64,000 bases of DNA from Hericium rajendrae (Eukaryota; Basidiomycota; Agaricomycetes; Russulales; Hericiaceae). The notes under the pieces were generated by a model, which was given only the letters and a program-made list of their open reading frames with translations, did no database searches and was not told where the DNA came from. Shown piece after piece: positions 10,590 through 15,015 of this stretch; the first letter of the stretch is position 1; every line of letters begins with the position of its first letter. Where the stretch lies: contig CM065878.1 of assembly GCA_033439255.1 (NCBI GenBank), positions 3,162,001 to 3,226,000 of the forward strand. The letters are read 5' to 3'. Position numbers and translations under genes: made by a program.

Positions 10590-12912
<2,323 letters not shown>

Positions 12913-13093: not shown

Positions 13094-13102
13094 ATCGATA
13101 TG
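13094..13102 (+). repeat. Target-site duplication, left copy
   Basis: ATCGATATG directly abuts the first base of the palindrome; the same 9 bases follow its last base. Confidence 0.85.
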
Positions 13103-13679
13103 CAGGCTCCTGCCCATCCGTCGCTTCAGGGTAAGGGCCTAAATCCGAGGGCGGGGGGATAGTAGGGGGACGCGACGTGTATATTGGTGTGCGAACATGT
13201 AGCTACATTAGGACTAGTAATTCAAACTCAATGAAACTCAGCCCTTCCTCCTTGAACTTAAATCGCCCTTACCCTTCAGCGACGGCTGGAGGAAAACATA
13301 TACAAACATTCAGCCACCGCAGTCCACGGACGGGGCAGGCTGATGTAATCGACCACCGTATATGTTCCCGCGAGCCCCCTGTAAACATGAAAAGTCACAG
13401 AAGTCTAAGCACAGTCGAAAGGTAGTCTAGAAATGAGTAAATAAATCAGAAAAAAGACTACGAAGCCGGCGCTCAGCCTGCGCGTAGCTGCGCGCGTAAC
13501 CCCGGGGTTTTCAATAAAAGGAAACACGATCGAGAATCGAACGCAGAGACTTCATAAAAAGTGCACGCCTCACTGAACGTTGCAGCCGCTACGCCATCTC
13601 AGCTTTCCTAAGCTTCCCTGCTTGATAAATATATGGACATTTGGCTCCCTGCGAAGCACGAAAACTTATTCGAGTCGCC
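13103..13679 (+). repeat. Left arm of the palindrome
   Basis: Matches the right arm (13814-14380) in reverse complement. Differences seen: G/A at 13130, G/A at 13588, a 10-bp insertion here (around 13603-13612) and four transitions between about 13635 and 13669. Inside the arm, 13119-13138 and 13265-13284 form a further 20-bp inverted repeat with two mismatches. Confidence 0.95.
13520..13617 (-). ncRNA. Mirror copy of the tRNA-like unit in left arm
   Basis: Same unit as at 13876-13963, on the minus strand, with a 10-bp insertion between the 5' pairing segment and the A box and one G/A difference. Confidence 0.45.
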
Positions 13680-13813
13680 CGGTTCTGCGCACGGGGCAGG
13701 CTAATCAGTTTGTTGAACATCCATATTCCACACCATTTTTTTAACACTTTGTAGAGAGATGTAACTTGGACTACTTTGCGTACGGGTCCATTGTCGACAA
13801 ACCCGTAGGTTCA

Positions 13814-14380
13814 GGCGACTCGAACAAGTTTTCGTGCCTCGCAGGGAGTCAAATGTTCATATATTTATCAAGCAGGGAAGCTGAGATGGCGTAGTGGCTG
13901 CAACGTTCAGTGAGGCGTGCACTTTTTATGAAGTCTCTGCGTTCGATTCTCGATCGTGTTTCCTTTTATTGAAAACCCCGGGGTTACGCGCGCAGCTACG
14001 CGCAGGCTGAGCGCCGGCTTCGTAGTCTTTTTTCTGATTTATTTACTCATTTCTAGACTACCTTTCGACTGTGCTTAGACTTCTGTGACTTTTCATGTTT
14101 ACAGGGGGCTCGCGGGAACATATACGGTGGTCGATTACATCAGCCTGCCCCGTCCGTGGACTGCGGTGGCTGAATGTTTGTATATGTTTTCCTCCAGCCG
14201 TCGCTGAAGGGTAAGGGCGATTTAAGTTCAAGGAGGAAGGGCTGAGTTTCATTGAGTTTGAATTACTAGTCCTAATGTAGCTACATGTTCGCACACCAAT
14301 ATACACGTCGCGTCCCCCTACTATCCCCCCGCCCTCGGATTTAGGCCCTTACTCTGAAGCGACGGATGGGCAGGAGCCTG
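13814..14380 (-). repeat. Right arm of the palindrome
   Basis: Reverse complement of 13103-13679, lacking the 10-bp insertion of the left arm. Confidence 0.95.
13876..13963 (+). ncRNA. Degenerate tRNA-like unit in right arm (A box, B box, T4 terminator)
   Basis: Read on the plus strand it has TGGCGTAGTGG at 13887-13897 (fits the Pol III A-box consensus), GTTCGATTC at 13941-13949 (fits the B box), ends GGAAGC/GTTTCC that can pair over six positions, and TTTT directly after (13964-13967). AGTG/CACT can enclose a seven-base loop where an anticodon would be. The D and T stems pair poorly, so it is not a functional tRNA by eye; it may be a decayed tRNA or a SINE-like head. Confidence 0.5.
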
Positions 14381-14389
14381 ATCGATATG
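14381..14389 (+). repeat. Target-site duplication, right copy
   Basis: ATCGATATG immediately after the right end of the palindrome, in the same orientation as the left copy. Confidence 0.85.
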
Positions 14390-15015
14390 CCGAAACGACC
14401 TGCATCATCGGAAATTTGGCACTTACCCGCTCTGTTCGTCGGTGTTGGTGGTTGGTGGTCGAAAGTGCAGAGGAGCGCTTTTGAGATAGGCTATGTCTGA
14501 TATCGAGGATCAGGCCGAAGAACGTTGGGGATGATTACGCTCCATGGGGCGAATAGCAGCGAGCGCGTGCATTCCTCTTCGGATTTTGGACTGATCCTCT
14601 ATCGCATTTCCGGCTGTCAATCATCTTTGCAAATTGTGAGTCGTTTCTCCGCTCCCCGAGATGAAACTTTGATCTATTGTTTTTACTGGATGACTTTCCG
14701 CGGCCCTAGATCTGTGGTATGGCATTCCAGAGGCCATTTCAAATGCCTTAAAATAACTTCCTCATCCAATCAGATCGTCCAAATCAGCGGATTCTTAAGC
14801 TTATTTCAACTTTGATCTGTCGTCCGTTATTTCGCTCCCCGCGATGAGACTGTATGTACGCTGTAACACGAACGATGGGCATTCGTCATAATATGATGTG
14901 ATACGATACGCTATGGAATCCAAGGTAGCTGTGACAGCGACTACAGTTACAACCAAGAACAAACGAGATGACCAGAAAGCAAGTGGCAACACACTGTCCT
15001 CACAACACCATAATC
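14390..15015. other. Region between foldback element and CSL gene, no gene seen
   Basis: 626 bp. Two similar short blocks occur, near 14641-14673 and 14820-14852, sharing cgctccccg followed by gatga/gact, which may be the remains of an old repeat. Frames on both strands lack motifs. Confidence 0.45.

Follow-up and report, generated by a model that had tools for sequence, protein, structure and literature searches.

RESULTS

A palindromic element upstream of the pyruvate kinase gene

The window analysed is a 64-kb stretch (C1:3162001-3226000) of a genome of 46.77 Mb in 19 contigs, which was searched as a whole and contains the window as part of contig C1. We take the host to be a fungus, probably a basidiomycete of the mushroom type. 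The genome search found a single PF00224 gene, a pyruvate kinase gene within the window, with its predicted start codon at 12912-12910. Approximately 190 bp upstream of this codon lies a long palindrome, termed F1 (Table 1), whose position makes it a natural test of a 1.3-kb hairpin on a core glycolytic promoter. To the right of F1, a 27-bp direct repeat (81%; 14642-14668 and 14825-14851) was observed, with a second repeat of 16 bp nearby.

Table 1. Coordinates of F1, its parts and the neighbouring gene (positions within the 64-kb window)
Feature	Position	Strand	Remarks
Pyruvate kinase gene	11281..12912	-	PF00224; context, outside F1
Foldback element F1	13103..14380	.	1278 bp
F1 left arm	13103..13679	+	577 nt
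F1 spacer	13680..13813	.	134 nt; no second place found in genome
F1 right arm	13814..14380	-	567 nt; reverse complement of left arm
Left target-site duplication ATCGATATG	13094..13102	.	
Right target-site duplication ATCGATATG	14381..14389	.	
Longest exact arm match	13131..13587	+	457 bp; reverse complement of 13896-14352
Terminal module, left arm	13103..13348	+	common to inverted ends of the 23.6-kb and 12.0-kb elements
Terminal module, right arm	14135..14380	-	same module
Subterminal inverted repeat, first half	13108..13138	+	partner 13265-13293
Subterminal inverted repeat, second half	13265..13293	-	
tRNA-like A-box/B-box pair, left arm	13534..13596	-	reading outward
tRNA-like A-box/B-box pair, right arm	13887..13949	+	reading outward; TTTT starts 15 nt past B-box

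An earlier note on this DNA had described a near-perfect palindrome at 13094-14389, with arms of about 570 bp, 457 bp of them without a difference, and a spacer of about 134 bp. The palindrome is real, this span being F1 plus both duplications, and the measured lengths were 577/567, 457 and 134. The longest exact inverted repeats in three block-shuffled windows were only 15, 14, and 12 bp, so a chance origin was excluded. The outermost 27 bp of the arms were also exact, and gapped alignment of the arms revealed six substitutions, all transitions (13130, 13588, 13636, 13644, 13655, and 13668), and a single 10-bp indel near 13610. As the note had stated, both outer flanks carry the same 9-bp repeat: ATCGATATG abuts F1 directly and exactly on each side, and it occurs four times on the + strand of the window (13094, 14381, 24500, and 51400). 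No stop-to-stop frame of at least 100 aa overlaps F1, in line with the note's view that no transposase lies inside it. With its long inverted arms, short spacer and bounding target duplication, F1 has the features of the foldback class.

Long near-perfect palindromes are a known type of assembly artefact, and a read fold would be one way to obtain such a structure. However, the arms of F1 differ by six bases and an indel, the spacer is unique, and a 9-bp sequence is duplicated exactly on either side, which makes an assembly fold extremely improbable; the sister palindromes described below also carry target-site duplications (TSDs) of their own.

The ends of F1 are shared with two large coding elements

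The search of the genome with F1 returned at least 15 match rows. Besides F1 itself, four places matched its outer 220-260 bp, and they formed two inverted pairs, each bounding a large element. The inverted ends of the first (C2:4690946-4714511, 23.6 kb) matched the outer 246 bp of F1 at 93% and 86%; the TSD GGTCGAGGT stands on both sides, which is weaker evidence because the flank is a GGTCGA repeat. The ends of the second (C2:1757309-1769294, 12.0 kb) matched the F1 module at 75-76% over about 220 bp, with the TSD ATATAACAT on both sides. C1:529282 and C8:1868890 matched the end module mainly in its inner part. When the first 35 bases were used as a pattern with up to three mismatches, six ends were matched, those of F1 and the two partners, and control matches were 0. 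The search for arm and end sequences that the earlier note had proposed thus had a divided outcome: the ends recur in large coding elements, and the spacer and inner arms were found at no second place in this genome. The coding partners with the same ends bore out the note's reading of F1 as a transposable element of foldback type, bounded by a duplication of 9 bp.

Both same-end partners encode DUF6589 (Pfam PF20231; E values 9e-63 and 4e-75) together with a helicase. In the 23.6-kb copy, Pfam DEAD was above the cut-off in the helicase, and in the helicase pieces scanned from the 12-kb copy both DEAD and Helicase_C were below it. The best NCBIfam match of the partner helicases was RecQ family for 4 of 5 pieces and RecQ for the other one, all below whole-protein cut-offs, and the PDB matches of two pieces were RecQ, WRN, and BLM helicases, pointing to a RecQ-like enzyme.

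Neither partner is intact; there is a nested insertion in each and the DUF6589 frames contain stops, which counts against deriving F1 from AcademH (see below). The helicase gene of the 23.6-kb element is interrupted by a Gypsy-type retroelement with reverse transcriptase, RNase H, and integrase. In the 12-kb element, the DUF6589 gene is split by an insertion with a zinc-knuckle frame, which we read as a retroelement; Pfam named nothing in the longest frame of this insertion.

The earlier note had named Mutator-like (MULE) elements as one fitting assignment and suggested looking for an autonomous partner with a MULE-type transposase. Duplications of 9 bp and long inverted repeats fit MULEs, and a Mutator/foldback family, Tm1, reportedly exists. 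F1 resembles such foldback elements, including Drosophila FB, in its long inverted arms and short spacer, and could in principle be moved by a MULE transposase encoded at another locus. However, all six end-pattern matches belong to F1 and to the two elements that encode DUF6589 and a RecQ-like helicase, and the 20 ORFs scanned in these partners contained no MULE domain. Given the genes that the partners carry, a MULE origin was set aside as highly improbable.

DUF6589 and helicase genes are paired across the genome

The genome contained 68 DUF6589 match rows, corresponding to 34 loci when rows less than 3 kb apart were joined; none was found in 14 control genomes, all of them prokaryotes. A helicase piece gave 29 rows at 28 loci. 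Twenty-three of these 28 had a DUF6589 locus no more than 25 kb away (for 20, no more than 10 kb), with the two genes convergent at 19 and divergent at 4.

Six elements with DUF6589 and a helicase were read at both ends, and four had an exact 9-bp TSD. Among them, C2:4075225-4094695 has the ends CAGGCTCCTACCC and the TSD ACCTTGAAG, and C8:743104-749706 has the TSD CTTATGCGC, whereas in C9:1261844-1268314 and C9:215879-222478 the TSD was absent, which counts against the AcademH reading given below. The end repeats of these elements span 151 to 333 bp, and the terminal sequence CAGGCTCC is common to three elements of this coding type.

For DUF6589, 60 ORF pieces from 32 fetched loci, some overlapping, were aligned. 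In the numbering of the aligned stretch of one locus (L017), the near-invariant positions include D197 (32/32 rows), H232 (32/32), D355 (33/34), and D382 (31/32). Judged by the alignment, these acidic positions would suit a DDE-type enzyme, without proving it. The literature searched held no mention of DUF6589, and this uncharacterised domain is here linked to a RecQ-like helicase and 9-bp duplications.

Within the F1 end, positions 6-36 and 163-191 pair as an inverted repeat to a degree reached by 0 of 200 shuffles. The element at C2:4075225 keeps such a repeat with different letters, and between its two ends a G-to-A change in one repeat half is mirrored by a C-to-T change in the other. The repeat was weaker at the left end of the 12-kb element (1/200 shuffles) and was not detected at the end of the C8 element (174/200 shuffles). 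It could be a paired binding site.

Two further structures were observed. At C16:255258-268923, a large inverted duplication holds two mirrored DUF6589 and helicase copies (3644 bp at 99.7% and 1039 bp at 99.1%), with the two genes divergent. Three miniature hairpins of 104-108 bp (C12:1539346-1539453, C7:2619007-2619114, and C7:685263-685366) are each built from the terminal ~44 bp of the C8-type end, arranged as an inverted repeat. The stretch that contains the C12:1539346 hairpin and its flanks recurs in reverse complement at C7:2619007. None of the three hairpins had a target duplication, a result that counts against the AcademH assignment.

Probable affiliation with AcademH

The AcademH group is said to go back to a paper by Kojima in 2020 (Mob DNA 11:15). 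As described in PMC10045372, AcademH elements have TSDs of 9 or 10 bp and encode a helicase, and AcademX elements have duplications of 3 or 4 bp and encode a nuclease. PMC10799480 describes AcademH at low copy in Basidiomycota, Ascomycota, and Mucoromycota, and PMC8290104 mentions that putative non-autonomous Academ elements were noticed in Marasmius oreades. Compared with the description of AcademH, F1 has an exact 9-bp duplication, terminal inverted repeats that recur in a coding copy over about 250 bp (93% and 86%), and a fungal host; the helicase is encoded by both same-end partners, while F1 itself codes for nothing. It differs in lacking autonomy, in being a palindrome over nearly its whole length, and in having inner arms of foreign sequence and tRNA-like boxes.

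Because the same-end partners combine 9-bp duplications, DUF6589 and a RecQ-like helicase, we read F1 as an AcademH derivative. Most likely, F1 is a palindromic DNA transposon of the foldback class, non-autonomous and dependent on an AcademH-type element for mobilisation in trans; the name AcademH is given by description, on duplication length, helicase and gene pair. A previously unnamed palindrome is thereby tied to a known transposon group.

Kolobok elements duplicate TTAA, whereas the duplications here are 9 bp long and of varied sequence. This speaks against a KolobokH-type element, for which there is only a very slight chance, despite the likeness that KolobokH, in the description of PMC9587614, is a DNA transposon known only from fungi and carrying a RecQ helicase, as the RecQ-like partners here do. 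The Agaricus bisporus genome contains unclassified insertions of 1441 bp and ~1 kb (PMC10051438). By their description, these resemble F1 in being non-coding, in having inverted repeats and 9-bp TSDs, and in residing in a mushroom genome, but their inverted repeats are only 93-96 bp long (PMC10051438).

A second foldback family with concerted arms

A second foldback family, F2, has the same plan. Its copy at C2:4099778-4101187 (1410 bp) has arms of 571 bp, a spacer of 268 bp, and the TSD CATCGTTCT, and the copy at C14:1656714-1658116 (1403 bp) has arms of 518 bp and the TSD GTTTACATG. In the C2 copy, the match to the ends of the DUF6589 and helicase element at C9:1261844-1268314 (94%) covers the outer 172 bp, and the remainder of the arm had no match to that element. 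Further partial copies were observed on C3 and C10.

Within each copy, the F2 arms are 99.8% identical (570/571 and 517/518), whereas between copies they are only 86-88% alike, indicating that, separately in each lineage, changes have passed from one arm to its partner. A new fold-back event in every lineage would be a less likely explanation, since the alignment of the two copies runs from end to end and takes in the spacer. Arm identity is therefore no clock, and the earlier note's description of F1 as 'young' lost its basis, given F2 arms so alike within copies that differ by 12-14%. The concerted arms caution more generally against dating foldback elements from arm identity.

The arm differences of F1 are distributed unevenly, with one substitution in the outer 485 bp and five substitutions plus the indel in the inner 92 bp (6/92 versus 1/485; Fisher p 9e-5, with the split picked after seeing the data). 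In the F2 copy on C14, the arms cease matching beyond 518 bp. In our reading, both patterns reflect conversion between the arms, with tracts that end close to the spacer.

These observations suggest the following course of events. The DUF6589 protein, as a putative DDE-type transposase, would recognise ends of ~250 bp starting with CAGGCTCC, assisted by the RecQ-like helicase, and insertion would proceed by a 9-bp staggered cut. A fold-back duplication may have copied one family end and the adjacent foreign DNA in inverted orientation, giving the inner ~330 bp of each arm and converting a fragment with a single end into a mobile unit with two. Later gene conversion between the arms would keep them alike. 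A single-arm donor of the inner arm was not found in the genome, which counts against the fold-back origin.

Two other origins were considered. F1 might be the relic of an AcademH sub-family with terminal repeats of ~570 bp, in which an internal deletion made the palindrome. The end repeats of the elements here do vary in length, and a coding copy of exactly F1's sub-family was not found in the own-genome search. On the other hand, the homology of F1 to its partners ends about where the partners' own repeats end, and that of F2 ends at 172 bp within a 333-bp repeat; we regard a relic as unlikely, though it deserves some weight. F1 might also be a composite of two AcademH end fragments that were inverted by chance and joined without fold-back copying. 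A composite would agree with outer modules that are family ends common to the partners, and with an inner arm that showed no convincing similarity to the partners' interior, but the inner ~330 bp are also inverted and matched, which is unexpected from two independent fragments. A composite is thus improbable, and fold-back copying is the origin that we prefer.

tRNA-like box pairs in three palindrome families

In F1 and the two F2 copies alike, each arm contains the A-box and B-box sequences TGGCNNAG and GTTCGATTC, 54 nt apart from start to start and reading outward. In the right arms of F1 and F2, a T run starts 15-18 nt past the B-box. With 25-55 bases allowed between the boxes, the pattern occurred twice in the window against 0.02 expected. 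The whole-genome scan with 44-48 bases between the boxes gave 34 matches, and the reversed-pattern control gave 1; judged by eye, several of the 34 resemble tRNA genes and a few look like chance matches. All eight box-pattern pairs less than 1.5 kb apart were divergent, and they belong to F1, the two F2 copies, and five copies of a third palindrome family, F3.

The F3 family has the ends GAGGCAGTTCAG and GTAGATATTCAG and comprises 10 end pairs, 8 of them ~0.9 kb apart, and 2 single ends. The box spacing is 55 nt in some copies. Target duplications of 7 bp were found in 5 of 5 copies examined, so F3 is not an AcademH family. In the sole copy read through (C2:1756306-1757245), the arms are 91% alike and one arm contains an intact box pair.

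In tRNA-derived SINEs, an A-box and a B-box are followed closely by a T run. The palindromes resemble them in the two boxes and the nearby T run, but here the boxes lie in both arms and read outward, and no tRNA was called. Neither ARAGORN nor Rfam (E up to 1 and up to 10) called a tRNA in F1 or F2, and at E up to 10 Rfam gave two weak matches, both to unrelated families; the idea of a true tRNA gene in the arm was therefore dropped. In RNA folding, the tRNA-like stretch of F1 did slightly better than its shuffles (z -2.2, 3/200). Common descent of the tRNA-like cores was also rejected, the 43 inter-box bases matching no better than shuffles (F1-F2 12, F1-F3 7, and F2-F3 12 matches), and in a gapped comparison of F1 with the F2 C2 copy the score, 35, stayed below the best shuffle score of 36. 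Since the cores of the three families are unlike between the boxes, the signal was either acquired repeatedly or only the boxes were kept.

In the literature searched, no paper combined tRNA-like sequences and Pol III with foldback transposons, and none combined tRNA-derived SINEs with palindromes and inverted repeats in basidiomycetes. We tentatively raise the possibility, to which we give less than even weight, that foldbacks of at least two classes (the 9-bp AcademH type and an unclassified 7-bp type) each gained divergent tRNA-like Pol III promoters, one per arm, outward and with boxes 54-55 nt apart, and that Pol III units or bound TFIIIC act in the palindrome's life. Such 'Pol III foldbacks' would be a convergent class of parasites, in which the signals might, for example, open the arms, promote arm-to-arm conversion, or shield the element from silencing. 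Should the tRNA-like pairs prove functional, palindromic elements that are otherwise unrelated would have a feature in common that can be tested. In our judgement, the features of F1 worth following are its concerted arms and its outward tRNA-like pairs.

No coding partner of F3 was found in the genome. An 8-kb F3 copy (C2:2012178-2020184) with a long frame in its middle was considered as a candidate, and a nested insertion was judged likelier: the 1301 middle bases hold one long frame that by eye reads as a retroelement gag with a zinc knuckle.
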